A DNA stretch of 63,321 nt from a virus. The DNA is taken from IMG/VR virus record IMGVR_UViG_3300030117_005840, positions 1-63,321 of that record. One strand, written 5' to 3'. Below are positions 28,222 through 61,728 of the stretch, piece by piece. How positions within the stretch are numbered: the first letter of the stretch is position 1; the number at the start of each line of letters is the position of its first letter. Position numbers and translations under genes: made by a program. The notes beneath the pieces were generated by a model that had not been told where the DNA came from, made no database searches, and worked only from the letters and a program-made list of their open reading frames with translations.

Positions 28222-28312
28222 TTGACTTAAAAAGTTTCTCATGTGCATGTTTCCAGTTGTTTCTGTAATAGAAACAACTGGAAATGTTTAATAGAAGAAA
28301 TTTTATATGGGC
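28222..28312 (+). promoter_or_regulatory. Nested-hairpin element, copy 1
   Basis: A perfect 15-bp stem (TTTCCAGTTGTTTCT, 28250-28264, with 28270-28284; loop GTAAT), preceded by AAAGTTTCTC (28231-28240) and followed by TTAATAGAAGAAATTTTATATGGG. The same element is at 58835-58925. It lies between TerL and the next late operon and so can end TerL transcription and/or start the next unit. The TTAATA and TTTTATAT stretches could serve as -10-like sequences. Confidence 0.7.
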
Positions 28313-44200: not shown

Positions 44201-47200
44201 AGTAATCACTAACGAATCCACAGCTTATAAAGATGGTGAGCGGATAGGTTCCTATGACCGCCTTATTGTAGCACGTAAACCTATCAAAGAATTAGACGGT
44301 GAAGAACCTGTAGAGTTAGCTTCCAGCATAGGATCACGCCCGCCTACAGATGAGGAGATTCTGAACGCCACTGAATTTCGGCATGTGCTGGACTTGTTCG
44401 ACCTGCCTGTCCTGAAGGCCGGAGGCTATAAGAAGCCTTTCAAATACAAGTTTATGCGGTGGTTAGCGGGATCGTTAGACCCACGTGTCCGCTCGCTTGA
44501 TGACCAGCGTAAGTTTATGATGAACCAATCGTTGCGCACGGTTACCAAGTTCCATGAAAATCTTAAAGCGCAGACTATTGAAGCCTACGGCTCTTTAGGT
44601 AAAGCACCTATAAAGGTTATAGCAGCGGCAATCGGAAACACCAGAGGTGCCCGACCATCTAGCGCAGATGCTAAACGTATAGAGGATTACGTTATGCAAG
44701 GAGTGGCCGCAATAGATGCTAAACTCAAGGAGCAAGAACGTATAGCTAAGAAGGGTGACATAACATACAAGGAAGTTAGGGAAGCCCGCAAGCAGGCGAA
44801 GCAACAGAAAGCCCTACTAGAAGAAGAGGCTAACGCTGAGTATGCAGTTCTAACTGAGCAAGATAGACAACGGATTATCAGGGATCGTGCAGATGCTCTT
44901 GACCTACTCCGAAATGGGAATGACACCATACCCGCCGCGCCTGAACTGGTGGATACCTTGGACAGAATGCGTAAGTATATTGATGCCTTATCAGTTAAGG
45001 TTAAGCAATTATATGGAGTCAGCCCAGAGCTTGAGGCGCGTATCGATGACCAATTGGGAATATACCTTACCCGTAGCTACAGGATATTTAATGAATCAGG
45101 TTGGGCAGATAAAGTTCTCACCGATCCGAGCGAGGAGTTCCAGCGAATAAGGGAGAAAGGTGAAGGTTACTTTAGAGAGCAGTTCATCAATGCGCAGACG
45201 GCTATGCTTTTAGATAAATCTAGAAGGGATAAGTCGAAAGCCTTGAAAGCGAAGGATGAAGTTGCTTTCGCAGATGCGGAAATGTCTGCATCCGAAGCGG
45301 CTGCCATGGCTGAATCTCAATACAATGCATTATCTGAAGGTAATAGGACGTATGGACAACAACAGGTAGAAGCCTTTATTGAAGCCTATAGGAATAAAGG
45401 TTACATGCCCGCAGGTTTAGCGGGCAAGAGTGAAGGGTATAAACCTCTCACCGACAACCTGAAAAGGAAAAAGGATTTAGACCCAAGACTACAGGAACTG
45501 CTGGGCGTTTATGGAGAAGAGAGCTTCTTCGATAACATGTTTAGGACGTTTATGACGTTGTCCACCATGGCTGCCAATCAGAACTTCTTGGTTCGCGTTG
45601 CGGAAATGGGTAGAGAACAAGGGTGGTTGTTAACTCAGGAAGAACTGAATAAGAAAGCAGCGGAAGACCCTGATACATATGGGGGTGGAAACTATGTTGC
45701 CGTAAGACCTAATGTTAGTAGCAACGATAGGAAACCAAATACCTTATATGATCCGTTCGTTAACTACATAGACAGGAAGACAGGAGAAGAATTGGATTAT
45801 GGCAAAGCTAATGTAAGCGTAGCCAGCCCGCTATTCGCGCCCAAGGAGTTCAAGGAAGCAATGGAGAAAACCTTCGAACCTTCCTTAGTAAGCCAAATGC
45901 AGGATGAAGCATCTGAAGTAGCGCAGACCATGCACAAGATAGCGAGCCGCGCCACTGGACTTTCTATGGCAACTAAGACATTAGGTTCCGTAGGTTTCTA
46001 TATCCGCAACATTGCAAGTAACATGTTGTTTTTTGCGCCCGCTCAAGGGTTCTTCAGCTACCGGCACATGACCAAGCACCTTATCAAAGAAGGGCGCAGA
46101 ACCTTGCGGTGGAGTTCGCCTGAAAAGATAGATTCGTATTACGCGGAGCTAGATGCGTTAGGTATCATAGGGGATGAGCTTAGACCATCCGTCCTTAAAG
46201 AGTTAGTTATGGGTGAGACTACGCCTGAAACTATGATGAAGGACTTGGATACCATGTTAGCGGATGCCGAAGGGAATAAAGCATTAAAGCAAAGCAAAAA
46301 GTTCGTCGAGAAACTTCAGGAGCTTTCCCGATCTGTGGATGCTTTCTATAAGATTGCTTACTTCGAACATGAGTTAGATGTCTTACGCAAAGCCCAACGA
46401 AAATCCAGGGACGCGGGTATCAGTGATTCTATATCTGAGTTGTCAGAGTCTGAGTTAAAGCGGGAAGCCGCTCGCAAGGTTTTGATGACGGCACAGAGTT
46501 ACAGCCAAGCTCCTCCATTTGTTAAGGGCGCGCTTAAATCATGGTATGGGGTTGTGTTTGCGCCGTTCCTTCGATTCAAGATTGAAGTCCCCCGTATTAT
46601 GATAAACACGGGTAGGCTTATCTGGGAAGAGATAAAAAGTGATAACAGCGTTATCAGAAATAGGGGCTACAGAAGATTGAGTGGGTTCACATTCGCCGTC
46701 GGTGGATTAGGAACCGGCATGTCTTATCTGATCTCCCATATGTTCGGAGGATTGACGGATGAGGAGGAAGAAGCTAACCGAGCTTCGATGCCACATTATT
46801 TAAGATCACATACGTTCATTACGTATAAGCGTGATGGTGAACTTAGATCACTTGACCTGACTTATATTAATCCGTTCGCTACGATGCTCGACCCAATGAT
46901 GCGTGCGTTCCCTGAGATCATGCGCGGGGATGTGCCTGAAGCTACGCGTGAGTTTATGACTGCGTTATTCGCTAACCAGTTCTTAGATGAGCAGATCATG
47001 TTCGGAACCATACAGTCTATGATTAAGAACAAGAACCCAGATACTGACCAGCCTATTGTGGAAGCTACGGATTCCGCAGAAGATGCGTTATATAAATGGG
47101 GGCGTTTCTTATTTAGTGAAGCTATTGTCCCTCCATCAGTGGAACGTATCGGCAAGGGGAGTGACATAATGCAACTGTTGATGGGCGACAACGCCGCTGG

Positions 47201-47672
47201 CAATTTCGACCCAATCTTCGCATTAGGTAGGGAGTTCTATCCCGCCAGAGAGTATACAATCAAACCGGTTGATCAGCTTGAGCGTTACCTAAGAACCCGA
47301 AGTGAGGAAATGAAAAGGGCTAAGATGCTTACACGCCGTTTAAGATGGGAAAATATCTCAGATGAAGATGTCCGTAAGATAGCACAGAGGGATGTAGAAA
47401 AACGTAAGCGCATCAATAAAGATATGCAGCGCATGTTTAAAGGGTTTGAGAGCATGGGAATTTCCGAAGGTAAGATTTACGATATCGCTAAGTCCAAGAA
47501 CTTTGGTAAGCGTAGGCTCGCGCTCCTGCACAGGGGTTACATGGAACGGCCAGTCTTATCTAAAGAGTTTCAAAGAGAGTTAGTCGGCAAGGGTGAGGAG
47601 TATGCCCGACGACTTCAAATCTTCACAGATGAAGTCAATAAGATGCCGCGCTTCATTCCATTAGATGACTAA
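32235..47672 (+). CDS. Giant polyvalent protein (5145 aa), probably ejected with DNA
   Basis: A 15.4-kb gene starting with GTG 40 bp after its neighbour. Segments recognised, in order: Ala/Gly-rich hydrophobic stretches near 492-532, 636-665 and 763-792; acidic linkers near 840-880 and 1000-1400; a helix with SEEMAHVA near 2472, like a zincin whose first His is Glu; a GNAT acetyltransferase core near 2926-2991 (RKGVAKALL); a TGT/DpdA-like transglycosylase domain near 3305-3535 (FLDSGAF); a methyltransferase-like domain near 3870-3990 (VYDPANRSPEHN); coiled coil near 4146-4226; hydrophobic or amphipathic segments near 4586-4616, 4770-4805 and 4815-4842; and a basic C-terminus. This is the architecture of large polyvalent proteins of phages and conjugative elements. 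By place it corresponds to the largest ejection protein. No RNA polymerase motif was found. Confidence 0.85.
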   Translation: MPDAPIPPLGGVNDPVLSPIKQEDTFNDYESWSNARGMTTEEPVESIRNYADYVREWHLNTGELTDEIDASINTALLQKAQQIGAIGTPDVDPDFEANAVNLVGARDISSDRKISLVRQALGDLEADNFSQKLEADPTDPYVNNRLNESKALLVRTGEIPFATISSIDGNERSIIGGPASRGAHLGDAFKRSAMAGTVSYADAAQALRFSQTKNSDGLNVFEQQELSELMVEMAAAKADKSNYDVMGGALKDVKEAISKADKINKEFIDTPYKSIEDAREALQRHYSKTRNSYGAKAHGRFSDRDIGRALQVFAAQDLNHSGAFEFYDDPEEDNRNIRMFGGVPMAHPTLMLRRDRFESAVDKDTRLTDEQRISLKQRRQAYVAGAFDHYKDILDETSATGSKWRAALQAGRVKGTPDVDILDNFLADPENYSHFKNQLTQFGSSIEASIAQLWSFPAQIFGSSSAREYNEKEAKEDARRREVAALFGEEFSWVLDAAGTASAVVVDALVSLGLAAFTGGVVGLGYLSTQAGSRVTAKGLAKKSMGLTLLKPKFYQSPKQLADDLIANNLIKTSGTDAAKVGVEKAIEAYTRAMSNRFMRQTTMAIPWGTRSGGGMFVSVYGSLPDTMSHEEKHAIALGAGLKAAASTILITSAFSKMGLGGFEDSLLNRGLSYKEMKQVLTKLSGQKVGNKEAEALIKSRMAEAIHELDRPFNKGVGKFLKARAKDALPEGMEEGLDEFVQSFIEAAALDEERPLIEHINRALVGARAGALIGGTLTPAMRAVNRFATGAGIKDAESYERDQIQNIISTLEENDSPLAAAELRNWTRTALARGPREALPPRPEGAPSLEEDVEAEATEITPPVEEDAELIPASPAKQKHHRQVNKTFANYYATDGATILPSVLPRITDEAELQAARNDADYNIDSDGVIYGVRIGGTWVGFPTRKATRKDSPETLGQDEMPFIDEVMAQGGPSPRPGFRRVKRKTIIESLEKDGVDEDGKDKYKTVEREVEDFEWVPMFEQEAPAIPKAYTTESGEVQYEFPFSAALDRPVEQKIQQLLLPLSEQTSLPLGEGEAVTEPDPSAIPEFAKLAEGDERELFERALEILSNSIKNEGRIQSKPVIDWLDNQFERNGTISPQLLDYITQTIEVAVQESGTVDSEMADFREAIFTSFNTSMSLMLEDRLRKKDVAKNQSDQFTDWQKKKEEDEKVYEQLEFNLSDKGQEDFNNEVTSARQKIKELWDVDPNTFPEYVKFEDEWPDVAADISPELLEKWKNRITEFYTRYLNPNLFAGEPISKAEDKRYLDHKNILNDYKNREGAFSDGAVENLYDEILDAERFILQAYDLYIQNPEGQSIIALPKEQAGNQILIVEDTSKINFEEGVIGDSQFAFNIGPIKRLEAAPAEDEAVIDDMTEVEIGVNLEDADSSTEYAEYLYFALEEVRNKEDYDDEGADKSVIETAGFRELASFLRDKRATDSPILANDKLPRASVKILGDELKRLANIASTADGYASVVDPLNNKADEILANLKATKPTTPTASTVIESKISRTEDGGREDELSLDVATLGLNIFGGHTLEGSDKADSSANLRFDNALNAEMQLWKSEAVSRWERAFELGDKEAMRVENTYLAALNSGSLSGRFGGSFVGMSFIGNLSASDGIPIALLERLYSDIKESYEYWRGAKKYDWFLPDVVRRDKHPEDVDLLRDKLKLLSDHLSEVRNDPSQLSPNSQEELPIFVGNTDTEDYHYNASWKKAGGNDLYIEIDTGFIADPLEKAAADKFVGAFSRLKVEKVGEGTGRHIRWRATLDGETLTKNDGSEAIFKKLKEAKEFVFNDDNTQPPDELTVLLNNVVYEPTSALPDPKFIVASGLRTRFLTEEDKAEILARPDAAAAEPVTDGITVFNSKWSTERLETEHGTERFPKETQQGRLDNARDYFGSGYELGLSGAQYEAPRWKWIYELTAFKEGYASGREQSDADETLETSIGSYEPSPNSVYSTHLSGDDGGDHIQPLLSGANSTEERQAILSEWTKRNPLASAQLSSFMTKWARIMAYRPIFVTKKEDGTSVYTYHEDWEAMVAEESERLRKENPDITEVEAYDNAAKSLIGDDYRERMRYASLLNSAVLGGFEETRMPSGYKEDEIPILDEPDMYFGINSSVLEEYKQEAETNIREEYNLSLNSTLVGYEEYIRLEQQRLAEVAWSEKMTQNPTGVMAEADAPLLVKAISSVLAIAESPGSPLNGRGLNTDISTDSFKKVLEMADEAAPFSEFVEFLESDEMFGESEATQEAINGILNYLGYDSVIDLRAVDPMQPSGMRRDTPATLVVFDSRRVKSGNPITFDDDGQIILPEDRIDLRDYDERRTQVAAFESTTPPPMISGTHNGMEAIAADDSENTATDIKRRVNDNVGLALDVASSNGVNTTVVRSLDYAPGGSKQNAPPMWAKGNMVYINPYGVARAISGLQDKDALHLSVTMVSEEMAHVASWNVLTRAEVQEVIDSLGDGDFTDIADEYYQDQSSKEASFARLNSPDPTVSGKEKYRLIEEKMRMHAQRVVRGFTTEEDNKFFRSNPNLLQRAIRYMKGFLRRLLELRKVQRQNPHLARATDRIVTQLRMMRGNFKAPDIEPFDVNNPESGMVALATQIDSTAELNDTSMIPVKYDEDDNIIQQPYDLLGSPLLTGKGFRNKGARDFTKPDYVELPYAVIKPDRAKVEAAIDSGAIDRAAALLAKQAEESLSDPELPEDIGQARFGVWGARSLRRLLYKAPVKASQSRWRIQPPAEQGISGGDLLAAELIFNRAAKQLDMDTAELHAVMQFAEKKIWAGNGWVDDVGVKEPEDTALHTSISLVGVPDDASEAIENIRSLGTTAVAFAGLSNEPVTAVRPSSLGFPKEWDAAYDSFKEVAERGGLPIGVENIYFKVKPGVNYKNEVELSLLWVPHTMQRKGVAKALLKALFKKADKTGAMVSALAKAYTTDGPQGKELVSFYQRAGMTGVGRMEPQAITDPEGFIADTIDSWQDIRDNEYEDELDWRKADDSPLTSEEQRILTTSPNEYYSSTGSRDRLTFPLIDPVPSDEALEIAVRRKQKDEAARHYMDEGLQIYRPYRGKEDAAPESYFPDLYTSIGDPPIPPATKRFVEGEMGSFSTDKLLYTIMNNGDPFTRESAEALNYTLNVLPDMDDADRLRQQNPDLSEEEIEMLAEWPWESQPTPIKGLNATMDDRGNLYIGAFEDPMTGEVEGEGGMYGYLPKSRVDEVFDTFRSGAAVNLHHLKKAIMGTMSIGAQAQSIHKRNYEKQPKTDGVHAPGEGFRARHGRLLQYWFRGGRVFLDSGAFAAFSAKNNILDAGSVDAAIKAGYPKTIVEQVYNNPKSSLLNWEEIVSFYEEWAALSINPTDALNLTVVAPDIIGDPIGTKELLEQYKDRLLGLMDKGVTVVVPAQRPNAPRDEASFADAVGDITSIFGEDSRRWNFVVGAPSAKAVWSKKELETYVDQVSRNDIPENQQAYRIHMLGANDERVRGLSKKSTHVLITGDTTADFVKEDQFDRTGRPLRKLETEAQWNKYEKVARDFAKMGQAIAKYSTARPLTRGAGQPLTGVATTPTSSDEQLELWSSLGGMDLWDSQDPNATKFPDWNLDIAKLDDPRMRGITMRHTGVSEATAPAGERLHIQRYPSFLMWDTFSFDKDEDGRPQPSISDPVSVKDMRLLNNAPDTNAPTIVREAHKQKKLNGLRYRGALLDDMGFDANTLQPEDIRVLGQSGRRTIVEVSLPEGMKQVFYLSSGRGRKAGIGGTTAGQWQPFGGFMDNISPRSGNVIPRWFIKDADYLTLPDGSNLVEKSADWLERNQEIVSQARLYGSASFTEISERLDELVEKVAPDKPMWISGGINAAIGGGASQEATNILLNRHGVTNVVYDPANRSPEHNEEAAKLIRGGQADTATVASVMNSGVSDDVRAHAIELAADAIKPNGSAYFWVTEHAANRYAESYRGFVNQVKKNFGEVITNESTAYKDGERIGSYDRLIVARKPIKELDGEEPVELASSIGSRPPTDEEILNATEFRHVLDLFDLPVLKAGGYKKPFKYKFMRWLAGSLDPRVRSLDDQRKFMMNQSLRTVTKFHENLKAQTIEAYGSLGKAPIKVIAAAIGNTRGARPSSADAKRIEDYVMQGVAAIDAKLKEQERIAKKGDITYKEVREARKQAKQQKALLEEEANAEYAVLTEQDRQRIIRDRADALDLLRNGNDTIPAAPELVDTLDRMRKYIDALSVKVKQLYGVSPELEARIDDQLGIYLTRSYRIFNESGWADKVLTDPSEEFQRIREKGEGYFREQFINAQTAMLLDKSRRDKSKALKAKDEVAFADAEMSASEAAAMAESQYNALSEGNRTYGQQQVEAFIEAYRNKGYMPAGLAGKSEGYKPLTDNLKRKKDLDPRLQELLGVYGEESFFDNMFRTFMTLSTMAANQNFLVRVAEMGREQGWLLTQEELNKKAAEDPDTYGGGNYVAVRPNVSSNDRKPNTLYDPFVNYIDRKTGEELDYGKANVSVASPLFAPKEFKEAMEKTFEPSLVSQMQDEASEVAQTMHKIASRATGLSMATKTLGSVGFYIRNIASNMLFFAPAQGFFSYRHMTKHLIKEGRRTLRWSSPEKIDSYYAELDALGIIGDELRPSVLKELVMGETTPETMMKDLDTMLADAEGNKALKQSKKFVEKLQELSRSVDAFYKIAYFEHELDVLRKAQRKSRDAGISDSISELSESELKREAARKVLMTAQSYSQAPPFVKGALKSWYGVVFAPFLRFKIEVPRIMINTGRLIWEEIKSDNSVIRNRGYRRLSGFTFAVGGLGTGMSYLISHMFGGLTDEEEEANRASMPHYLRSHTFITYKRDGELRSLDLTYINPFATMLDPMMRAFPEIMRGDVPEATREFMTALFANQFLDEQIMFGTIQSMIKNKNPDTDQPIVEATDSAEDALYKWGRFLFSEAIVPPSVERIGKGSDIMQLLMGDNAAGNFDPIFALGREFYPAREYTIKPVDQLERYLRTRSEEMKRAKMLTRRLRWENISDEDVRKIAQRDVEKRKRINKDMQRMFKGFESMGISEGKIYDIAKSKNFGKRRLALLHRGYMERPVLSKEFQRELVGKGEEYARRLQIFTDEVNKMPRFIPLDD

Positions 47673-49265: not shown

Positions 49266-49283
49266 AATATTTTTGTATGTGTT

Positions 49284-49309
49284 TAGGGTTCAGGGTTCAG
49301 GGTTCAGCA
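49284..49309. repeat. AGGGTTC heptamer tract 2
   Basis: Three tandem copies of AGGGTTC in the gap between two leftward genes. The tract supplies the TGA stop of the upstream gene (49304-49636). Possible slippage site or protein-binding array. Confidence 0.75.
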
Positions 49310-51700: not shown

Positions 51701-52159
51701 TCATTTTTGCGGGGTATCTGAGAATGTTGGTCGGGGTCGTTGCTTCGACGCGCCCTGCTCGTCGTTGGACACCATTCGGCCTTGGCTGAAACCGGTGGGG
51801 ATTTGCCTGCCCTTATCTTTAAGCACCCACAAGTGGTATTGATTAGCAGTATCCACCAAACGGGACTCAGCGGGATAGAGTTCTAGGCCTTCGTGTTCTG
51901 CTCCAACGAGATCATTTTTGATCTGCTGGAAGTCACGCCAATCACGGGACGGACGACGGTCATGGGTCTTGATTGATAGATGATACATTTCTGTATAAGG
52001 GGATATGAAAACCTGATAGTATCCGTTGCGAAACCATCGCTCACCCTCATGTGGTTCGTATCCAGAAGACGTATCGACGGGGCATTCAAACCATGCCCAT
52101 TTAGGATTGGTAGCGGGATTGTATTTATCCCACATCTTATCTTTTTTACGTTTAGCCAT
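51701..52159 (-). CDS. Early-type protein, 152 aa
   Basis: Unrecognised. A basic start (AKRKKDKMWDKYNPATNPKWAWFECP), then an aromatic-rich region that could be a small beta domain (HEGERWFRNGYYQVFISPYTEMYHLSIKTHDR), and a polar tail. It is the second gene of the leftward operon, 4 bp after the stop of the small membrane peptide gene. Confidence 0.65.
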   Translation of the reverse strand: MAKRKKDKMWDKYNPATNPKWAWFECPVDTSSGYEPHEGERWFRNGYYQVFISPYTEMYHLSIKTHDRRPSRDWRDFQQIKNDLVGAEHEGLELYPAESRLVDTANQYHLWVLKDKGRQIPTGFSQGRMVSNDEQGASKQRPRPTFSDTPQK

Positions 52160-52280: not shown

Positions 52281-52339
52281 GATTACCTTTTAATATATCA
52301 GCTTCTAATGGTCAAATATATTATTCAATTATTTTCTAG

Positions 52340-52381
52340 GTGACAGTATGCGCTTACTCCCTATCGACGTGACAGTATGCG
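52340..52381. repeat. Two direct repeats GTGACAGTATGCG
   Basis: Identical 13-mers at 52340-52352 and 52369-52381 (29-bp period). The shared GTGACAG core recurs as GTGACAGAAC at 56482-56521 and 58081-58090, so they may bind one protein. Confidence 0.75.
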
Positions 52382-52397
52382 ATGACAGGGGTTAATC

Positions 52398-52445
52398 TAC
52401 GGGGTTCAGGGTTCAGGAAACGGGGTTCGGGAAACAGGGTGCGGG
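52398..52445. repeat. G-rich AGGGTTC-type tract
   Basis: GGGGTTCAGGGTTCAGG followed by imperfect GGGGTTCGGG and GGGTGCGGG units. Related to the heptamer tracts at 48905 and 49284, and to degenerate copies near 56560, 58118-58160 and 63206. Confidence 0.65.
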
Positions 52446-52495
52446 TTTCGAATTACTCCAGGCATTTGATAAAACACAGGCAGGCCGCTCAACCG

Positions 52496-52528
52496 TTAGT
52501 AAAAGATTAATTAGAATTAATTTACTAA
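52496..52528. promoter_or_regulatory. AT-rich palindrome, candidate operator
   Basis: TTAGTAAA-AGA-TTAATT faces AATTAATTTACTAA, a 14-bp stem with a three-base bulge and a two-base centre. It lies 38 bp before the ATPase gene of the accessory island. The size and position suit a dimeric repressor site or an origin-melting element. Confidence 0.55.
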
Positions 52529-52566
52529 ATACTTGTAAAATAACCTTATTAGATGATAGTCCGCGC

Positions 52567-53667
52567 ATGAAATTACCTTTATGTAAAATCAAACAACTGG
52601 GGCGCATTGCAAAAGCTGCATATGATGCCGGTCGTCAATTCTCAATATATGGACAAGGCGGGACGGGTAAAACAACCGTTCTAAGGGAAGTGGTAGCACC
52701 TGCCTTAAACATTGCGCCAGAGAACGTCTGGCTTGTTAACCTGTCCGGCAGCGCGCCGCAGGAATGCCTAGGCTATGGCATCCCCGATAGCGCAACGCGT
52801 GATATGTGGTTTAGCAGGCCGGAGATATGGCCAACTCCGGACAGGGTGCCGGACGGCACGCGCACAATGCTGATCCTTGATGAGCAAAGTGATTATGATC
52901 CGGCCGTCAATAGCTTATTGCGCGGCCTATTCAACCCGACAGGCGGCCGCAGTAAAGTTGGTTCGCATGAGTTAACGAGTGACTTGTTTGTTTGCTCAAC
53001 CGGTAACCGGCGCACCGATGGATCAAATCGCTCTGGCATTCCATCTGCGCCGCAGGTTGAGCGTGCGGTATCGGTTGAATTACAGCCGGACTTAAACGGT
53101 TGGCTTGAGTGGGCAAGCAACGTGGATGGAATTAAAAATTCACCCTTGCTGGCCTTTCTATCATACTCAAATGGGCTTGAGGGAATCGATCATTTCTGCC
53201 CACCGGTAGAGCAACCGTGGGAAGGTTCGCCGCACCCATGCCCTAGAACGTGGGAAGCGGCCGCGAATATGGAGCGCACGCTTACCGCAGATAATGCAGA
53301 CATCTCGCTTATTAGCCTCGCCATACGTGGCGCAGTTGGCGAGCAAGCAGGTAATGCAGCTTTTGCATTCACTGAAACGGTGCATAAAGATTTACCGTTA
53401 TTGGCGAAAATACGCGCAGGGCAGGCTAACTTACCTGATGATGATCCTAGCCGACAATACGGCCTACTTTATACCGGTATAAGACAATGCTCTAAAGAGA
53501 GCAACGCCGACCCGGAAGCGGCGGTCGCATCCGGCGCAGTTGATTGGCTTGCCGATATGATATGCTCAGCGGCCGGAGATATCCGCGTCTGGGCTTTTGA
53601 ATCTGCAATGCGCGCAGGCTTGCCACTTGATCAGCATCCGCGAAGGGAAGATATGCAAGGCGTTTAA
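52567..53667 (+). CDS. MoxR/CobS-like AAA+ ATPase
   Basis: A 366-residue ATPase. Walker A GQGGTGKTT (residues 29-37), Walker B MLILDEQ (D105, E106), a loop GGRSKVGSHELTSD and sensor-1 Asn in FVCSTGNRR match the MoxR/AAA_5 group. MoxR ATPases work with a VWA protein to insert cofactors or remodel complexes. The partner here is 54768-56330. A strong hairpin terminator with T run follows at 53710-53741. Composition (CCGG and GCGC-rich) differs from the leftward operon beside it. Confidence 0.8.
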   Translation: MKLPLCKIKQLGRIAKAAYDAGRQFSIYGQGGTGKTTVLREVVAPALNIAPENVWLVNLSGSAPQECLGYGIPDSATRDMWFSRPEIWPTPDRVPDGTRTMLILDEQSDYDPAVNSLLRGLFNPTGGRSKVGSHELTSDLFVCSTGNRRTDGSNRSGIPSAPQVERAVSVELQPDLNGWLEWASNVDGIKNSPLLAFLSYSNGLEGIDHFCPPVEQPWEGSPHPCPRTWEAAANMERTLTADNADISLISLAIRGAVGEQAGNAAFAFTETVHKDLPLLAKIRAGQANLPDDDPSRQYGLLYTGIRQCSKESNADPEAAVASGAVDWLADMICSAAGDIRVWAFESAMRAGLPLDQHPRREDMQGV

Positions 53668-53709
53668 TTGTGACAGAATTAATTCTCATTATATACCTTT
53701 TATTCATAT

Positions 53710-53741
53710 ACTTGCGCGCGTTTTACATAGCGCGCGCAAGT
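53710..53741 (+). terminator. Rho-independent terminator
   Basis: An 11-bp stem (ACTTGCGCGCG with CGCGCGCAAGT), 10-nt loop, followed by TTGATTTTT. Strong and canonical, so the ATPase may be expressed separately from the next two genes. Confidence 0.85.
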
Positions 53742-53761
53742 TTGATTTTTCAATAAACTCC

Positions 53762-53789
53762 AGGCATTCGAAAAAACCGGCGAATGCCT
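53762..53789 (+). terminator. Short hairpin AGGCATTCG/CGAATGCCT
   Basis: A 9-bp stem with a 10-nt A-rich loop (AAAAAACCGG), followed by CTT. It may be a second terminator, or a leader structure of the next gene, whose start lies 34 bp downstream. Confidence 0.45.
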
Positions 53790-53822
53790 CTTAATAAACT
53801 AACCGGACACAAAACTATAAAA

Positions 53823-54713
53823 ATGAAAACCGTAAACCAACCCGCACCAGCACAAGCACCGGTGCCATTAAAAACAATAAATAGCCTTGTGCTTTTTTCT
53901 TTTAGGACAAAGCAACCGGCCACTACAAAACTAAATCGCCGCGCAGGAGTTCAAGCCGCAATCAATAACGGTGCAAGCCGCAATGCCGCGCGCCTTTATA
54001 ACCGCTTTCTGGAATCCAGAGGCACTGTTATTGGCAAGATCAGCACGTTGTTTAATCAAACGAGTAAGAAAATGAGGGAGCGCGCTTTGCCGAATGCCTC
54101 CGGAGGCTATTACCTGCGCGCCAAAGATGTTGATCATGTGCAAGGTGTATTTGATGAGGCTTTAAATGATCTTGATCATTTAAAGCAGATATTACTTAAT
54201 GACTGGGATCAACTGCCTAGGCCGGAACTTGGCCAGTTTGCGCAGGATATTAAAATGCCGAGTAAATATGAGTTCGCAGACGCTTACCATATGGAACTGG
54301 ACTGGATGCGCCAACCGGCCGCGATTGAGGGAACCGTTCTGGAAGGCGTAAGCACAGAGACGGCCGCACGCGTCCGCGCCGAATCGCAGAAAAGCACAGA
54401 ACGCAGTTTGATTGCCGCGCATGCCGAACCTGTCCGCGAAACGCTCAAGATGTTAACCGGTGCAATCGATCATTTAGCTACCGGTAAACGGTTACGTTCC
54501 GAACGGTTCAAAGCATTGCAGGATCAGATCGGCAGACTAGATGACATGAACTGGCTAGACTTGCCGGAGTTAAAGCAATTAACTAATACCTTACGCCCCT
54601 GTGTCATAGATACAGATCAGCTTGATGATTCAACCGATAAGCACAAGGCAGTAAGCACGCTATCAGAGGCGCAACGAATTGCAGAGCAAACCCTTAAAGA
54701 CTTAGGTATTTAA
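53823..54713 (+). CDS. DUF3150-like coiled-coil protein of the MoxR-VWA module
   Basis: The start at 53823 (MKTVNQPAPAQAP) is preferred over 53784, which lies inside a hairpin; 296 residues. Region GYYLRAKDVDHVQGVFDEALNDLDHLKQI and the C-terminal ALQDQIGRLDDMNWLDLPELKQLTNTLRP have the shape of DUF3150 proteins, which I recall next to CobS/MoxR ATPases and CobT-like VWA proteins on plasmids and phages. It may be the adaptor or substrate subunit of the ATPase/VWA machine. Followed by a 13-bp hairpin. Confidence 0.6.
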   Translation: MKTVNQPAPAQAPVPLKTINSLVLFSFRTKQPATTKLNRRAGVQAAINNGASRNAARLYNRFLESRGTVIGKISTLFNQTSKKMRERALPNASGGYYLRAKDVDHVQGVFDEALNDLDHLKQILLNDWDQLPRPELGQFAQDIKMPSKYEFADAYHMELDWMRQPAAIEGTVLEGVSTETAARVRAESQKSTERSLIAAHAEPVRETLKMLTGAIDHLATGKRLRSERFKALQDQIGRLDDMNWLDLPELKQLTNTLRPCVIDTDQLDDSTDKHKAVSTLSEAQRIAEQTLKDLGI

Positions 54714-54719
54714 TCAAAC

Positions 54720-54752
54720 GCGCAGGCCGGTGATAATCGCACCGGCCTGCGC
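54720..54752 (+). terminator. Perfect 13-bp hairpin
   Basis: GCGCAGGCCGGTG pairs with CACCGGCCTGCGC around a 7-nt loop. No T run follows, so it may be an mRNA stability or attenuation element between the second and third genes of the module. Confidence 0.6.
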
Positions 54753-54767
54753 TAACCCTTTGAAATT

Positions 54768-56330
54768 ATGACATTAAAACCAGAAGTAGATCATTCAATT
54801 GATCAATCAGTTAAGCCGGAATCGCTTGAAAAGGTGATTTTCGCACAAAGCAGCCTAGCCGCACGCGCACTGCGCCGGTTACGGAAACACGCGCCGCGCC
54901 AATATATCAAAGCAATTGCGCTTGATTGGCGTTATTGCGACTTTACACCGTTCGCGGCCACAGATGGCCGTTACTTCTTTGTAAACCGGAAAGGACTGGA
55001 GTATTTAGCAGAGCAAGACGACCCTGTCGGCCTTATTGCATTCTTATTCCTGCATGAAACCTTTCACGCCGAACGCTTGCACCCTTTACGCTTGAGCCCT
55101 GCAAAATATAAGGATAGGCAGCGCGCCAACTTTGCCGCCGATTACGTTACAAACGCGGATATTCACCGGCTTAACGTGGCGGCCGGTATGGTCTGCGCAG
55201 GCCGTTACCCGTTCCCATTAATTGAGGGATGCCTGCATGATCCACAAATTAGCAAAGATTACTCTGTGGAAGAACTTTATAGACGACTTAAGCAACCGGA
55301 ACTCCCAAAGGGAAAAAAGCAGGCGGCAGGCGGGGATCAGGACGGGGATCAGGAAAATGAAACTAATCCCACAGATGCAGGTAATACGGATCAGGACACA
55401 GGCGGCAATGGATCAGATGCCGGTAATGGTGAGATCAAAAGCGAAAATGATGCAGACGGCAAGGAAACTGGAGGTGCGGCCGGAGACTCCGGCGCAGGCG
55501 CGCAGGACGGGGATCAGGCTGCCGACACTAATCCGGAGGCCGGAGGCGCAGATGGCGGCGCGGATCAGGCGGGAACCGGTGCCGGAGGCGGCGCAGGCGT
55601 AAATGATCCATCGCTGTCCAATTTACCCGGAACGGGCGCGCCCGATCTGCGGCAACCAACCGTAAAGCCTAATGAATCATTAGCCGATATTGAGCAAGGA
55701 TTGAAAAAAGAGAATGAGCGGATCAGGCTACAGGAATCATTGCGCAGTATCGGGGACGGTGAGGGCGGTTTTGATAGAGAAGTATTTGATAGGCCGCCTG
55801 TGCGTCTTGATTGGCGGGAATATCTAGCACATTGGCTGCTTGCACGCGCCTGCACAGCTTGGGATAAGCCTATAAACGTGCCAATCTATTCAGCAACCGG
55901 TCTTGTGAGCGCAGGCAGAGATCAGGCAACGCTTGATACGCTTGTGATAGGTATCGACACGTCCGGCAGTGTAAATGATGATGAACAAGGCGAAATGCTT
56001 GCAAGTATCCGGCATGCAGTGGAAACCATTAAATTTGAGACTCTGCACTTACTCGCATGTGATAGCGGTATAAGGCAGCACAATGAAATTCAGGCTTGTG
56101 ATTTGTCGGCAATGCCTAATTACGTGCGGGGCGGCGGCGGCACGCGGTTTAGGCCTGTATTTGATTGGCAGGCAGAGAACGCACCGGATGCGCCTATTAT
56201 ATACCTTACAGACGGGCATTCTTATGACCTGAAAAGCATAAGGGAACCGGACGTTCCGGTTCTGTGGCTATCGTGGGATGCTCCAGTTAATCATTACCCA
56301 TTTGGCGAGGCTGTGCGCATATGGCTATAA
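54768..56330 (+). CDS. Metallopeptidase-VWA protein (DUF2201-like)
   Basis: A 520-residue three-part protein. (1) Residues about 20-180: putative zincin domain with H96-ETF-H100 and an NFAADYVTNADIHRL helix that supplies a further ligand, as in DUF2201_N. (2) Residues about 185-290: Gly/Asp/Ala/Gln-rich low-complexity linker. (3) Residues about 340-520: VWA-like domain with MIDAS D397-x-S-x-S401 (IDTSGS), GGGGTRF near 455 and a YLTDGHS loop. This is the partner type of MoxR ATPases. It could recruit or cleave a target under ATPase control. All key residues are present. Confidence 0.8.
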   Translation: MTLKPEVDHSIDQSVKPESLEKVIFAQSSLAARALRRLRKHAPRQYIKAIALDWRYCDFTPFAATDGRYFFVNRKGLEYLAEQDDPVGLIAFLFLHETFHAERLHPLRLSPAKYKDRQRANFAADYVTNADIHRLNVAAGMVCAGRYPFPLIEGCLHDPQISKDYSVEELYRRLKQPELPKGKKQAAGGDQDGDQENETNPTDAGNTDQDTGGNGSDAGNGEIKSENDADGKETGGAAGDSGAGAQDGDQAADTNPEAGGADGGADQAGTGAGGGAGVNDPSLSNLPGTGAPDLRQPTVKPNESLADIEQGLKKENERIRLQESLRSIGDGEGGFDREVFDRPPVRLDWREYLAHWLLARACTAWDKPINVPIYSATGLVSAGRDQATLDTLVIGIDTSGSVNDDEQGEMLASIRHAVETIKFETLHLLACDSGIRQHNEIQACDLSAMPNYVRGGGGTRFRPVFDWQAENAPDAPIIYLTDGHSYDLKSIREPDVPVLWLSWDAPVNHYPFGEAVRIWL

Positions 56331-56485
56331 ATGCATTAATGCAGGTTAGAATACCTGCGCGCCTGTGGCGGGAAAATGGCCAGTGGTGCATTGCGCCAAA
56401 TGCGCGCCCGACTAGCGTTATGCGCTTTGATAGTGTTAAGGATGCGCGCAGGATGGCACGCGCCTTGCATTGGCGCATAATGTGA
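56321..56485 (+). CDS. Small basic protein at module end, 54 aa
   Basis: A 54-residue frame overlapping the end of the VWA gene by 10 bp. The product (MQVRIPARLWRENGQWCIAPNARPTSVMRFDS...ARRMARALHWRIM) is basic with alternating strands and a C-terminal helix. Its TGA lies in the first GTGACAGAAC repeat. Overlap and composition suggest co-expression with the module. Confidence 0.55.
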   Translation: MAINALMQVRIPARLWRENGQWCIAPNARPTSVMRFDSVKDARRMARALHWRIM

Positions 56486-56521
56486 CAGAACGTGACAGAA
56501 CGTGACAGAACGTGACAGAAC
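56482..56521. repeat. Four tandem GTGACAGAAC iterons
   Basis: Exact 10-bp direct repeats with no spacer at 56482, 56492, 56502 and 56512. The 10-bp period places the sites on one face of the helix. Another copy plus a variant lies at 58081-58100, and the core GTGACAG is doubled at 52340-52381. Confidence 0.85.
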
Positions 56522-56548
56522 CGGCACACGGGCAACTGTGTGCCGGTT
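56519..56548 (+). terminator. Terminator after the MoxR-VWA module
   Basis: AACCGGCACAC pairs with GTGTGCCGGTT (11 bp, 8-nt loop) and TCATTATA follows. It overlaps the last iteron by three bases. Confidence 0.7.
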
Positions 56549-56770
56549 TCATTATACAGGGATCAGGATAAAGGGTGCGTTTTGGGTTATTCCTGGCTAA
56601 TCAGAAAATCGCAGGCAGCCTGCGCCGATCCTGTCCGGCCTTAACCGGTGACGATCCTGTCCGGCCTTAACCGGTGACGATCCTGTCCGGCCTTAACCGG
56701 TGCCGATCCTGCACTGGCCGCAGGCGAGTTGCGCCTTGTGCGCATCTGTAATCTATGCTTTTATAGGGGC
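56549..56770. other. Gap with degenerate G-rich element and 26-bp repeats
   Basis: No gene is seen here. After a degenerate GGGATCAGG...GGGTGCG segment resembling that at 52398-52445 and a GCAGGCAGCCTGCG stretch, the 26-bp repeats at 56626-56711 follow. The final 60 bp before the next gene are plain. Confidence 0.6.
56626..56711. repeat. 26-bp tandem repeat, three copies plus part
   Basis: Unit CGATCCTGTCCGGCCTTAAC plus CGGTGA at 56626, 56652 and 56678 (the last with one change), then a partial CGATCCTG. Each unit holds a GATC and a CCGG site and the core GATCCTGTCCGG, which is also the core of the array at 57745-57896. Confidence 0.85.
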
Positions 56771-57166
56771 ATGGATAACCAAAACAAGCCGGACGCGCTA
56801 ACCGGCCTTAACAAACAAGCGCAGAAACGCGGGGTGATTGATACCCGCTCATTAAACAAACGGCCTTTTAAGAGCAGTCCGGCCGGACAAGACCCTAAAA
56901 AGCCGTTTGAGTGTTGTATATGCGGCGCAGGCGTGATTGATGGAACTTGGCCGCATAACCCAGACCCGTTTGAGGGTGAGGCATGCTGCACAGATTGCAA
57001 TGATACGCAGGTAATACCTGCGCGCCTGCTGATCCATTCAACCGGCCTGCGGCCGCCTGCCTCCGGCATTGTCGTTGGCGGACGTGAGCATACGCTTATT
57101 AACCTGCTATCGAACGCGATCTATTCAGGTGCGGCCGATCCAGTGCTAGATGGAGGTGATGAATAA
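56771..57166 (+). CDS. Two-CxxC zinc-binding small protein
   Basis: The start at 56771 (MDNQNKP) is preferred to one 42 bp upstream; 131 residues. The core CCICGAGVIDGTW...CCTDC (about residues 46-76) has paired cysteines spaced as in a treble-clef or zinc-ribbon fold. N- and C-terminal parts are polar. The gene lies between the two GATCCTGTCCGG arrays and starts a three-gene cassette with overlaps. Function not recognised. Confidence 0.6.
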   Translation: MDNQNKPDALTGLNKQAQKRGVIDTRSLNKRPFKSSPAGQDPKKPFECCICGAGVIDGTWPHNPDPFEGEACCTDCNDTQVIPARLLIHSTGLRPPASGIVVGGREHTLINLLSNAIYSGAADPVLDGGDE

Positions 57167-57342
57167 TGAATGCAGACACAGATGGCCGCTACTTCTTTAT
57201 TGAAGCGGATAATGAGCAAGAAGCCTTATTCCGTAAATGGGCGCGTGAGGAATACGAACCATTTACAGAAATCAAACCCGTATGGCATCCTGTCGTGAGA
57301 GACGAGTGTCACAAAATAAACACTGAACAAGCAAGTAAATGA
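57166..57342 (+). CDS. 58-residue protein sharing DGRYFF with the VWA protein
   Basis: An ATG sharing one base with the preceding TAA. It starts MNADTDGRYFFIEADNEQEALF. The nucleotides for TDGRYFF are nearly identical to those coding ATDGRYFF in the metallopeptidase-VWA gene (near 54959-54980), an apparent local gene-segment copy. The rest is charged. It overlaps the next gene by 4 bp (ATGA). Confidence 0.55.
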   Translation: MNADTDGRYFFIEADNEQEALFRKWAREEYEPFTEIKPVWHPVVRDECHKINTEQASK

Positions 57343-57548
57343 GCTATAATATCATTAAATTCTATAGAGAGGGTAAGCCCTCGGAAATCGTTAAACGCGG
57401 CCTGTCATTGGATGAGGCAAAAGAATATTGCAATAGGCCGGACACAGCCGGTGACGGTTGGTTCTGCGGCTTCCAGTGGTATCATCCCGATAATCCGCAT
57501 GATGACGAACCAGTAGACCTTTACCCGTTAGAGGGGGACGAACGATAA
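57339..57548 (+). CDS. Small conserved phage-type protein, 69 aa
   Basis: MSYNIIKFYREGKPSEIVKRGLSLDEAKEYCNRPDT: the pattern KIIRFY...G...GLTLEEAQ..C..PET is common in small phage proteins of unknown function (recalled). It ends with an acidic HPDNPHDDEPVDLYPLEGDER tail. A strong terminator begins 23 bp after the stop. Confidence 0.7.
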   Translation: MSYNIIKFYREGKPSEIVKRGLSLDEAKEYCNRPDTAGDGWFCGFQWYHPDNPHDDEPVDLYPLEGDER

Positions 57549-57570
57549 ACACTAAACATTAAACCCGATT

Positions 57571-57608
57571 AAAGAGGCCGGTTGCGTTAACGCGTAACCG
57601 GCCTCTTT
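57571..57608 (+). terminator. Strong Rho-independent terminator
   Basis: A 13-bp stem AAAGAGGCCGGTT/AACCGGCCTCTTT, then T and GTG. The loop contains the palindrome GCGTTAACGC. It ends the cassette 56771-57548. Confidence 0.85.
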
Positions 57609-57635
57609 TGTGGCCGTAAAGGTGAAATAACGCGG

Positions 57636-57682
57636 TTTAAAGGCGCGTATACTTCCATATTCGGCACCGGCCAAGGCCATTG
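57636..57682. repeat. 47-bp direct repeat, copy 1
   Basis: Identical at 45 of 47 positions to 57960-58006 (TTTAAAGGCGCGTATACTTC and so on, ending AAGGCCATTG). The two copies bracket the 16-bp tandem array. Confidence 0.85.
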
Positions 57683-57744
57683 CCTGCACTGTGGCAATTT
57701 GGATTTGCTCCAGGTATCTCATATTACACTAAGCAGCCTGCGCC

Positions 57745-57896
57745 GATCCTGTCCGGTGCTGATCCTGTCCGGTGCTGATCCTGTCCGGCCTTGCCGGTGC
57801 TGATCCTGTCCGGTGCTGATCCTGTCCGGTGCTGATCCTGTCCGGTGCGGATCCTGTCCGGTGCTTATCCTGTCCGGTGCTGATCCTGTCCGCCTG
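57745..57896. repeat. 16-bp tandem array GATCCTGTCCGGTGCT
   Basis: About nine units, most exact, at 57745, 57761, 57777 (longer, with CCTTGCC inserted), 57802, 57818, 57834, 57850, 57866 (TATCC variant) and 57882 (partial). No spacers, so not CRISPR. Every full unit except the variant has a GATC (Dam-type) site. Confidence 0.9.
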
Positions 57897-57959
57897 TGCC
57901 GCGTTTTTTTGCAGGCAGCGTCTCAACCGGTGCTGATCTCAATCTAGCAAAATGTGCGT

Positions 57960-58006
57960 TTTAAAGGCGCGTATACTTCCATATTCGGCACCGGTTAAGG
58001 CCATTG
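57960..58006. repeat. 47-bp direct repeat, copy 2
   Basis: Second copy of the element at 57636-57682. The only differences are CC to TT in the middle of ACCGGCCAAGG. Confidence 0.85.
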
Positions 58007-58080
58007 TCCGCGTTAAGGCCGGTTATGAGATCGTCAAACCATGCAATGCGCTTACATGCTGCCTGCAATATTTTGCGATT

Positions 58081-58100
58081 GTGACAGAACGTGACACAGC
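58081..58100. repeat. GTGACAGAAC iteron plus variant
   Basis: GTGACAGAAC followed directly by GTGACACAGC, matching the four-copy array at 56482-56521. Confidence 0.7.
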
Positions 58101-58458
58101 CGTTACCGGTTAAAGGTATCAGGAATAAGGGTGCAGGAATCAGGGTGCGGGGTGCAGGATCGATCTATACCTGGTTATCGATAAGGCCGGGAGGCTGCCT
58201 AGCGAATCAGCACCGGTTAAGCTTTCGACATCGTGCCAACGGCAGGCCGTTCTCCTGATCCGGGCGCGCACCGGCCAACTTGAACACCGGACAATGCACC
58301 ATGTTTCCGGCTTCATTATTGAGTGATAATGACCAATGATGCAGGAAGCAGGAAACACGCCACGGGTGGGGTGTCACTTTTTTTGAGCGCGTCATGCGTA
58401 GTATATACACGCGTAGGAAAAAATTTGACTGTAATCCCGTAATGAATTTCAATTACTC

Positions 58459-58713
58459 ATGGCAGATGAGGCTAAACAGAAATATTACCAAGATAACAAA
58501 GAGGCGCGTCTAGCCTATCAGCGTGCTTATTACAGGAAAAACAAGGCTTTGATTAAACGTAGAGCAGAGCTGAAAAAGGAAAATGATCCGTCATGGGAGG
58601 ATGCGCGGAAGGAATATAACCGGCTCTATTACCGAAAAAACCGCGCAAAAATCCGTGAAAACCGCGCGCGTTTACGCAAAAACCGCGCAGAAAGTGAGTC
58701 CGAAAAGGCGTGA
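58459..58713 (+). CDS. Basic helical protein with YYRKN repeats, 84 aa
   Basis: An 84-residue, very basic protein with two related halves: AYYRKNKALIKRRAELKKEND and LYYRKNRAKIRENRARLRKNR, both preceded by an acidic helix. Likely a nucleic-acid-binding coiled coil. The CGCGCAAAAACCGCG-like third segment of the gene is repeated in the following gap. The last gene of the accessory island. Confidence 0.65.
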   Translation: MADEAKQKYYQDNKEARLAYQRAYYRKNKALIKRRAELKKENDPSWEDARKEYNRLYYRKNRAKIRENRARLRKNRAESESEKA

Positions 58714-58834: not shown

Positions 58835-58925
58835 ACAAGTTGAAAAGTTTCTCAGAGCCAATTTCCAGTTGTTTCTGTAATAGAAACAACTGGAAATGTA
58901 TAATAGAGAAACTTTATATATAGGG
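58835..58925 (+). promoter_or_regulatory. Nested-hairpin element, copy 2
   Basis: A 16-bp perfect stem (58861-58876 with 58882-58897; loop GTAAT) enclosed by a second inverted repeat AAAGTTTCTC (58844-58853) / GAGAAACTTT (58906-58915). TATAAT lies at 58899-58904, then ATATATAGGGGG. It is the twin of 28222-28312 and stands 46 bp before the first gene of the portal/capsid operon. Confidence 0.75.
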
Positions 58926-59493: not shown

Positions 59494-61728
59494 ATGGAAG
59501 AGTTGGATGCAAAACTGGATGCCTTAGATTCACTAGGCTCTTTAGATAAAAAAGGCAAGCCCGTAAAAACACGCCTAAAGGACGTTAAAAGTGCCTTATC
59601 ACTTTTCCATACTCTAAGGAAGGCTGACGAAAAGTCATCCTACAATCGTGCTCGGGTAGATGCTATGTTCGACGGAGCATCGCCATATGATAGCGGAAGT
59701 CTCGCGGCCAGCGGGCAAGGGTTGAAGACTAACCTGAATTTCGGGGAAGCTCAGCGTTTGCTTGACGTGTCACTTTCCGCTTATGTTGACCTGTATTCAT
59801 CTCTAGAGCGTCTCGTTGAGGTTAAGGGGACTGAGGGTGAGGCTTCAGAGATAAAACCACAGGAAGACATAGTCGCGGAGGAGATTACGCATCTACTCCG
59901 AAGCTGGCCGGAATTTCACAGCAGCTATTTGCGGCTGTGCACCACTTTCATCAAACATGGCGTAGGTATTTCATATTTTGATACACCAGAGGATTGGCGA
60001 TTTAGAGTTGGTTCTTTTGCAGACATGCTGATCCCCCGCCAAACACCATCGTCAGAAGGGCTAATTGACGTAGCCATAGGACGACGCGAATACCATCTAC
60101 ACGAACTGTATGCCTTTATCCGCAACGAAGAGGCAGCAGAACGTGTTGGATGGAACGTGGCTGAGGTTAAACGCGCCATTTTAAAGGGCTCAGGGACGTA
60201 TGGGCGTAACGGGCGAGTTGGCACGTCTCTGACTGATTGGGAGCAATTACAGCAGGAACTGAAGAACAATGACGTTTACCAAGGGTATCAGAACCCCACC
60301 GTCAGCGTATTGCATTTCTGGATCAGGGAAATGGACGGTTCTGTATCGCACTACATTGCGTGTGAGAAGGACGGTAAAAAAGATCAGGAGTTCCTTTATA
60401 AGAAGATATCCCGATATGAATCCCCCGAACGTGCATTTGTTATGTTCACATACGGAGTGGGTTCTAACGGCACATACCACTCTATCCGTGGTTTAGGTCA
60501 CCGTATCTTTAACCATATACAAACAAGTAACAGGCTACGCTGCCAGATGGTTGACGGAGCTATGCTAGGATCAGCCGTTATGATCCAGCCGGAGTCTCAA
60601 CGTGCGTTGGATGAGTTAGGGTTTACTTACTACGGCGCATATGCAGTCCTTAGCCCGAACGTCAACATAATCGAAAAGGCAGTCCCGAATCTAGGAACGG
60701 CTGTGCAACCCGCTCTTGAGGACATCTCTAACCAGCTTGCTATGAACACGGATACCGTGAGCACGTATGGGCAGCAGGGATCACCTTACAGGAATCAGAT
60801 GCAGGTTGTGGCTGATATGGATGTTAGCACACGCCTATCCGGTGCCAGCCTTAACTTATTTTACGCGAGTTGGAATAGATTGATGCGGGAGGTTGTCAGA
60901 CGCATATCCACTAGCACAAAGAATGACCCCGCCTTAGCTACATTCATAAGCCGCTGTGAAGCCAGAGGCGTCCCCGAATCCTTTATCCGCACCCTTGACG
61001 TGGAACGGACAAGGGCTGTTAGGTCAATTGGATCGGGATCATACGCTAATCGATTAGTGGCTCTTAGAGAACTTCAGGCTATCTCAGGTTCGTTTGACGA
61101 GGTAGGCCGCAGAAACCTTACACGCGACATCGTATCTACGCGTGTAGGACACGATCTTGCAGACCGATACACTCCTCAGCTTGAGGGAGCGCGTCCTACG
61201 GTTGATAACAAGATTGCTTACTTTGAAAATCAGGAGTTGACGGCAGGTAGCCCTGTTCCTGTAATTACAAATGAACTACATGGTTCGCATTTACAGATTC
61301 ATTTACCAGCTCTAGGCGAGTTGCTTGAGCAACTTAACGCAGGGGCTGCTGATCCTATGCAAGCCCTACCTGCCTTGCAGGCTTTCTACCAGCACATTGC
61401 TGAGACAGTAGAGTTACTGGCAGGTGATCCATCCCAACAGGTGCTTATAGGAGAAGCGAAACAAGCTCTCCAATACGCTGAGGAGATGATAAATAATACC
61501 AGCAAGAAAGTTCAAAAGATGCAACGGGACGCGGCTCAGGAAGGAGCACCCGAAGGTCAACAGCCAGACCCAGCTATACAAGCTAAAATGGCTGAGCATG
61601 ACATGAAGATGCAGATGGCTCAGCAGAAAGCCCAAATGGATTTGCAAATAAAGCAAGCCAAGTTTGAGCAGGAGCAAGCTATGCGTGACGCAAAGAATGC
61701 AATGGAGCTACGTCAGCTCCAGCAGTAA
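59494..61728 (+). CDS. Portal (head-tail connector) protein
   Basis: A 744-residue portal. The N-terminal clip and stem regions contain SSLERLVEVKG...EDIVAEEITHLLRSWPEFHSSYLRLCTTFIKHGVGISYFDTPEDWRF, typical of podovirus portals where an early domain is followed by a channel helix. The C-terminal about 70 residues are a Gln/Ala/Lys-rich coiled coil (QMAQQKAQMDLQIKQAKFEQEQAMRDAKNAM) as in many podovirus portals. Twelve copies would form the DNA gate at one capsid vertex. Followed at 3 bp by the next head gene. Confidence 0.8.
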   Translation: MEELDAKLDALDSLGSLDKKGKPVKTRLKDVKSALSLFHTLRKADEKSSYNRARVDAMFDGASPYDSGSLAASGQGLKTNLNFGEAQRLLDVSLSAYVDLYSSLERLVEVKGTEGEASEIKPQEDIVAEEITHLLRSWPEFHSSYLRLCTTFIKHGVGISYFDTPEDWRFRVGSFADMLIPRQTPSSEGLIDVAIGRREYHLHELYAFIRNEEAAERVGWNVAEVKRAILKGSGTYGRNGRVGTSLTDWEQLQQELKNNDVYQGYQNPTVSVLHFWIREMDGSVSHYIACEKDGKKDQEFLYKKISRYESPERAFVMFTYGVGSNGTYHSIRGLGHRIFNHIQTSNRLRCQMVDGAMLGSAVMIQPESQRALDELGFTYYGAYAVLSPNVNIIEKAVPNLGTAVQPALEDISNQLAMNTDTVSTYGQQGSPYRNQMQVVADMDVSTRLSGASLNLFYASWNRLMREVVRRISTSTKNDPALATFISRCEARGVPESFIRTLDVERTRAVRSIGSGSYANRLVALRELQAISGSFDEVGRRNLTRDIVSTRVGHDLADRYTPQLEGARPTVDNKIAYFENQELTAGSPVPVITNELHGSHLQIHLPALGELLEQLNAGAADPMQALPALQAFYQHIAETVELLAGDPSQQVLIGEAKQALQYAEEMINNTSKKVQKMQRDAAQEGAPEGQQPDPAIQAKMAEHDMKMQMAQQKAQMDLQIKQAKFEQEQAMRDAKNAMELRQLQQ

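Follow-up and report, generated by a model that had tools for sequence, protein, structure and literature searches.

A MoxR, DUF3150 and zincin-VWA gene cassette exchanged among related phages and also carried by megaplasmids

What does a phage do with a MoxR-type AAA+ ATPase encoded beside a protein that joins a metallopeptidase to a VWA domain? MoxR-VWA gene pairs are frequent in phages, and the locus described here raises the question in a three-gene form. It lies in the IMG/VR virus record IMGVR_UViG_3300030117_005840, analysed from position 1 to 63,321, that is, over all 63,321 bases (the window). Besides a family A DNA polymerase, primase, helicase, exonuclease and terminase genes, the window encodes three consecutive genes, M, D and V (the trio; Table 1), within a segment at 52281-58458 that an earlier note, made from the letters alone, had taken for a mobile island. 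The trio is a module that recurs, though patchily, across a phage clade. We propose, at roughly even confidence, that it is an exchangeable unfoldase and metalloprotease of the MoxR-VWA kind, directed by the metal ion-dependent adhesion site (MIDAS) of V and acting on a host protein or a non-virion/replication complex.

The three proteins and their conserved motifs

Gene V encodes the zincin-VWA protein. It matches Pfam DUF2201_N (PF13203) at 2.3e-11 and 44.3 bits, against a gathering score of 23.2, and DUF2201 (PF09967) at 6.1e-20 and 72 bits, against 26.4. With its motifs in place, these matches bear out the earlier description of an HETFH zincin domain, a low-complexity linker and a VWA domain with an intact DTSGS. 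In the AlphaFold2 model the two domains lie mostly above 90 in predicted local distance difference test (pLDDT), and the linker (about residues 189-279), rich in Ala, Gly and Asp, falls below 50. The phrog_1314 profile matches V over residues 49-518 (3.6e-44). That family is labelled 'HNH endonuclease' in PHROGs and the label has passed into phage annotations, yet its profile matches this zincin-VWA protein.

Conservation of both motifs, which the earlier note had wanted checked in homologues, was examined in 201 copies. The HExxH is intact in 183 of them, including all 109 viral copies (80/80 from IMG/VR, 22/22 from the clade with the window included, and 7/7 from isolated phages), 64/80 genome copies and 10/12 plasmid copies. 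The HExxH was part of no search pattern, and the clade sequences were reached through the portal gene. Its conservation supports catalysis in the viral copies. The MIDAS set (DxSxS with T459 and D482) is intact in 201/201 copies, a count biased for the viral scan, which used the MIDAS pattern. One Vibrio phage PJN101 protein was no VWA homologue and was dropped from the alignment. Several cellular or plasmid copies (L104, L117, L126, L144, L174 and others), and no viral copy, keep HxxxH with the catalytic Glu gone, as in HTVMH and HLVMH.

The earlier reading of gene M as a MoxR-like AAA+ ATPase is supported by its phrog_1297 match and its invariant residues. Among 12 clade sequences G29, G32 and K35 of Walker A are invariant and G34 and T36 nearly so; in Walker B E106 is invariant and D105 nearly so, and the sensor-1 type Asn, N147, is invariant. 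The top match of the clade profile in the PDB is the midasin AAA (5.5e-23). Window M is 43-50% identical to the M of the nearest related phages. In one relative (L188, 2798-3945) the ATPase gene is broken into two open reading frames (ORFs).

The middle protein, D, had been guessed to be DUF3150-like. A Pfam search that admitted E values as high as 1 gave it no family, not even PF11348 (DUF3150), and tblastn with D gave no hits among phages or plasmids. D is matched over its full length (E 1.5e-12) by a profile of 60 middle-gene proteins taken from plasmids, viral contigs and genomes, and 10 of 25 members of the D family match PF11348. The AlphaFold2 model (pLDDT 90) has an alpha-beta and long-helix fold, which found no match in the PDB (best E 0.13) and matches viral proteins in BFVD, one of them annotated DUF3150, with template modelling (TM) scores of 0.71/0.75. 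Because of the profile, the family members in PF11348 and the fold match, D is assigned, on sequence and model grounds, to the DUF3150 family, though the Pfam model alone misses it; D is too divergent for that model. The guess thus proves sound, and DUF3150 gains a confident predicted fold and a genetic context.

Gene order and exchange of the cassette

No isolated phage has a match to the portal-like protein; IMG/VR contains 54 relatives of it, which are 61-99% identical. When 49 portal-related records were searched whole, M, D and V were found all together in 21 and none of them in the other 28; some records are fragments, so that absence is uncertain record by record. Wherever orientation is readable, trio and portal gene are on opposite strands in the relatives; in the window they share a strand, and the trio lies some 3 kb upstream. 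In two relatives (L188 and L207) the gene that immediately follows V, on the minus strand, is a homologue of the window gene at 51701-52159, which in the window adjoins M. On the simplest reading the cassette seems to occupy the relatives' address in the window, with the block inverted. A random foreign insertion was rejected, since the same trio lies beside the same neighbour gene in these two relatives, on the opposite strand.

Exchange is seen when trio and portal are compared. Two records with 90% identical portals (G029 and G035) have M proteins of 26% and V proteins of 30% identity; in another pair (G007 and G025) the portals are 77% identical and the trios 94-96%. Presence and absence on the portal tree require about 9-10 changes, at least 6 of them forced by well-supported branches. 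Because the identities disagree and presence changes repeatedly, the cassette is, to judge from these sequences, repeatedly gained, lost or replaced as one unit. The mobile island of the earlier note accordingly survives as an exchangeable cassette and fails as a one-off foreign acquisition, in view of the 21 relatives with the trio and of the M tree, where window M is nested among the relatives' M with a branch support of 98.

The order M-D-V is also kept elsewhere, in phages, Burkholderiales megaplasmids and some bacterial genomes, as the earlier reading would have it. Among viral, genome and plasmid loci, all collected through V, the order M-D-V was found at 39/80 IMG/VR loci, 17/80 genome loci and on 8 megaplasmids. 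On the Burkholderiales megaplasmids (Cupriavidus, Paraburkholderia, Variovorax) the same families follow one another as ATP-binding protein, hypothetical protein and VWA-like protein, and the gene sizes are similar to those of the trio. Their identity to it is 17-28%, no virion genes occur in the stretches examined, and some of these trios adjoin type IV secretion system genes. The N4-like (Schitoviridae) phages have phrog_1297/phrog_1314 pairs of the same PHROG families, the genes close together, but no DUF3150 gene was detected in between, and identity is about 20-29%.

Since these loci had been collected through V, a further search was run with the D profile alone over 289 genomes of one bacterial class. 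Four genomes were positive. M lies near D at 7/7 loci examined and V also at 5/7; one of these five lies in the seed genome, itself originally reached through V, and the two loci without V apparently hold partial D genes. Scanning IMG/VR with V or M as single proteins returned nothing, because these proteins are too divergent; alignments succeeded. Of the neighbours of the IMG/VR trios, 19/135 are DNA polymerase genes; exonuclease, primase, helicase and N4-like RNA polymerase genes also occur, and replication genes of this sort predominate.

Composition, repeats and neighbouring features

The segment differs in composition from the rest of the window, as had been noted for CCGG and GCGC against the neighbouring early operon. 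Frequencies per kb are 13.6 against 1.9 for CCGG, 13.4 against 2.9 for GCGC, 8.4 against 1.5 for GGCC and 8.1 against 2.4 for GATC. The symmetrised tetramer distance is 0.392 (z 15.6); other 6.2-kb windows give 0.156 +/- 0.015. In codon usage the trio is only at the margin of what the other genes show. The trios of relatives are usually higher in G+C than their surroundings, most without a comparable CCGG excess. GTAC is missing from the island (0 against 10.3 expected) and from all 63 kb (about 156 expected), so the island DNA shares the genome's GTAC avoidance. In the relatives GTAC is likewise absent from some and present at about 70 per 20 kb in others. We read the composition as a sign that the segment was acquired recently from a related phage whose restriction history was different. 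Local mutation may instead have been the cause, because the shift, which runs from about 52.5 kb to about 58.8 kb and so slightly past 58458, enters the clade-conserved gene 58459-58713.

Strong hairpins do separate the genes, as first described (Table 1). Of the 11 perfect stems of at least 10 bp (loop 3-12) in the window, five fall in the segment, which makes up 10% of its length (binomial p 0.0025). Confinement of the repeats to the segment is true in part: within the window GTGACAG repeats occur only in the segment or at its edge, but a GTTCAGG tandem repeat resembling the island border repeats lies outside it at 49281-49307, between early genes. The island DNA has no match in plasmids and a sole match of 145 nt, in the repeat region, in phages; a 28-nt stretch taken from the 56-nt repeat in the island has no exact match in IMG/VR.

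Table 1. Positions of the trio, its motifs and nearby features in the window
Feature	Position	Strand	Basis or remark
Neighbour gene, phrog_7839	51701-52159	minus	directly beside M; homologue directly downstream of V in 2 relatives
Left border repeat, ~14-nt period	52398-52445		repeat family D3
M, MoxR-type AAA+ ATPase, 366 residues	52567-53667	plus	phrog_1297 'ATPase', 3.8e-35
Walker A GQGGTGKTT, M residues 29-37	52651-52677	plus	sequence
Walker B MLILDE, M residues 101-106	52867-52884	plus	sequence
Hairpin between M and D	53710-53741		perfect 11-bp stem
D, DUF3150-family protein, 309 residues	53784-54713	plus	family profile and predicted fold
Hairpin between D and V	54720-54752		perfect 13-bp stem
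V, zincin (DUF2201_N), disordered linker, VWA (DUF2201), 520 residues	54768-56330	plus	Pfam, AlphaFold2
HETFHxxxxH zincin motif, V residues 96-105 (HETFH 96-100)	55053-55082	plus	sequence
MIDAS DTSGS, V residues 397-401	55956-55970	plus	sequence; completed by T459, D482
GTGACAGAAC x4	56482-56521		Tandem Repeats Finder (TRF)
26-nt tandem repeat x3.3	56626-56711		TRF
16-nt tandem repeat GATCCTGTCCGGTGCT x9.7	57745-57892		TRF
Right border repeat, family D3, direct orientation	58104-58165		similar to left border repeat
Portal-like protein	59494-61728	same as trio	label inferred from size and position; no family match

Some other features of the window were observed. A 131-residue ORF at 56771-57166, between V and the longest tandem repeat, has CxxC pairs (zinc-ribbon-like) and no PHROG match. 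The first 4999 residues of a 5145-residue ORF at 32235-47672 have no sequence match in the PDB. One perfect 15-16-bp palindromic hairpin with the tip TCT-GTAAT-AGA is present twice, at 28250-28284 and 58861-58897, both copies upstream of plus-strand gene blocks. Three relatives (L185, L211 and L184) have a hairpin at a roughly equivalent place with different arms, and in L185 the tip is identical; the hairpin is a candidate promoter or operator.

Possible function of the trio

In the proposed mechanism M would form an AAA+ ring onto which V docks, with D as adaptor or spacer. The MIDAS metal in the VWA domain of V would bind an acidic residue of the chosen target, ATP hydrolysis would pull or remodel the bound target, and the zincin domain, on its flexible linker, would cut it. 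Most likely the trio would be expressed with the early/replication genes in the phage clade. In CbbQO the VWA MIDAS holds an acidic residue on the surface of rubisco, and the authors of that study prefer a Rea1/midasin-like mechanism, in which the AAA+ ring exerts force on the MIDAS-bound target (PMC4660213). With CbbQO and midasin/Rea1 the trio would share an AAA+ ring and a VWA MIDAS binding an acidic target residue. The targets of those machines are known, and the machines are not known to have a zincin domain or a DUF3150 partner. The MoxR-vWA ternary conflict systems (PMC7159879) also combine MoxR, vWA and a third protein; their third component is VMAP, iSTAND or others, whereas here it is DUF3150, and their effectors are fused C-terminal to the vWA, whereas V has no C-terminal effector.

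Several observations weigh against a targeted protease of this kind. Because 16/80 cellular and 2/12 plasmid copies have lost the HExxH, most of them retaining both histidines and not the glutamate, proteolysis seems dispensable in some cellular and plasmid lineages. At another 28 viral and 48 genome loci M and V occur without a detected D, and terminase genes are also among the neighbours of the trio. The window block sits on the late-gene strand, and its timing may differ from that in the relatives. PADLOC gave no defence-system match for the trio beyond weak P-loop similarity, and a reading as a defence system was set aside on that ground, while a takeover or conflict function, as the earlier note suggested, may still hold.

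A role in virion assembly or maturation, with the ATPase and VWA protein as chaperone and the peptidase trimming structural proteins, has been proposed for a similar pair. A jumbo-phage survey describes in group 2.2 phages a MoxR ATPase beside a protein with an N-terminal metallopeptidase and a C-terminal vWA domain, and suggests virion assembly and structural-protein processing, citing tail assembly of Acidianus two-tailed virus (PMC7824862). The sections of that survey used here mention no DUF3150 third gene (PMC7824862), and the window phage is only about 60 kb. No experimental tests of the role of MoxR-VWA pairs in tailed phages were found in the literature searched. The place of the window trio, shortly upstream of the portal gene on its strand, fits this role; the pattern among its relatives does not. 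The trio was not found in 28 of 49 records with homologous portals, fragments among them, its versions of 26-30% identity are swapped between phages with 90% identical portals, and the relatives carry it on the opposite strand. Together with the replication-gene neighbourhoods and the plasmid copies, which exist without virions, this makes virion assembly rather improbable here, and a host protein or non-virion complex a likelier target than the particle.

Those neighbourhoods, with DNA polymerase, helicase, primase and RNA polymerase genes adjoining the trio in many phages, could instead mean that the trio remodels replication or transcription complexes belonging to the phage or plasmid itself. 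The plasmid copies and the kinship of the proposed ring to remodellers such as midasin agree with this, yet patchiness and wholesale swapping would poorly fit a partner of conserved replication proteins, and we regard the explanation as unlikely, though worth keeping in view. That the segment is a passenger or degenerate island, or an inversion misassembled from metagenomic contigs, is suggested by its odd composition, the repeats at both ends and its inversion relative to the relatives. Moreover, a near-identical record (G001, 99% portal identity) ends at window positions 45815 and about 58356, the latter inside the island, and no independent contig was found across 52.3-58.3 kb. Three long ORFs with all motifs intact, the shared GTAC avoidance and the relatives' trio at the same address make this very unlikely. 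As for the CobS/CobT-like relatives of the earlier note, a metal-chelatase-like module (CobS/CobT, BchI/BchD) would share the AAA+ plus VWA architecture. The matches are instead to DUF2201_N/DUF2201 and DUF3150; neither a chelatase family nor a third chelatase subunit was seen, and this reading, scarcely credible, was set aside.

The exchangeable unfoldase-protease proposed above can be taken a step further, more tentatively. The trio would be a distinct three-part targeted machine against variable host proteins, with cassettes swapped following target variation and DUF3150 as a dedicated adaptor. The machine is of a known kind, and its three-gene DUF3150 form was not found described in the open literature searched, where no paper has the word DUF3150 (subscription journals being mostly outside coverage). 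That the three genes are transmitted together as one exchangeable cassette, which plasmids share, lowers the likelihood of a virion-assembly role here. If the proposal is true, phages and plasmids would both use a MoxR-DUF3150-zincin/VWA machine, with a DUF3150 fold unmatched among solved structures.

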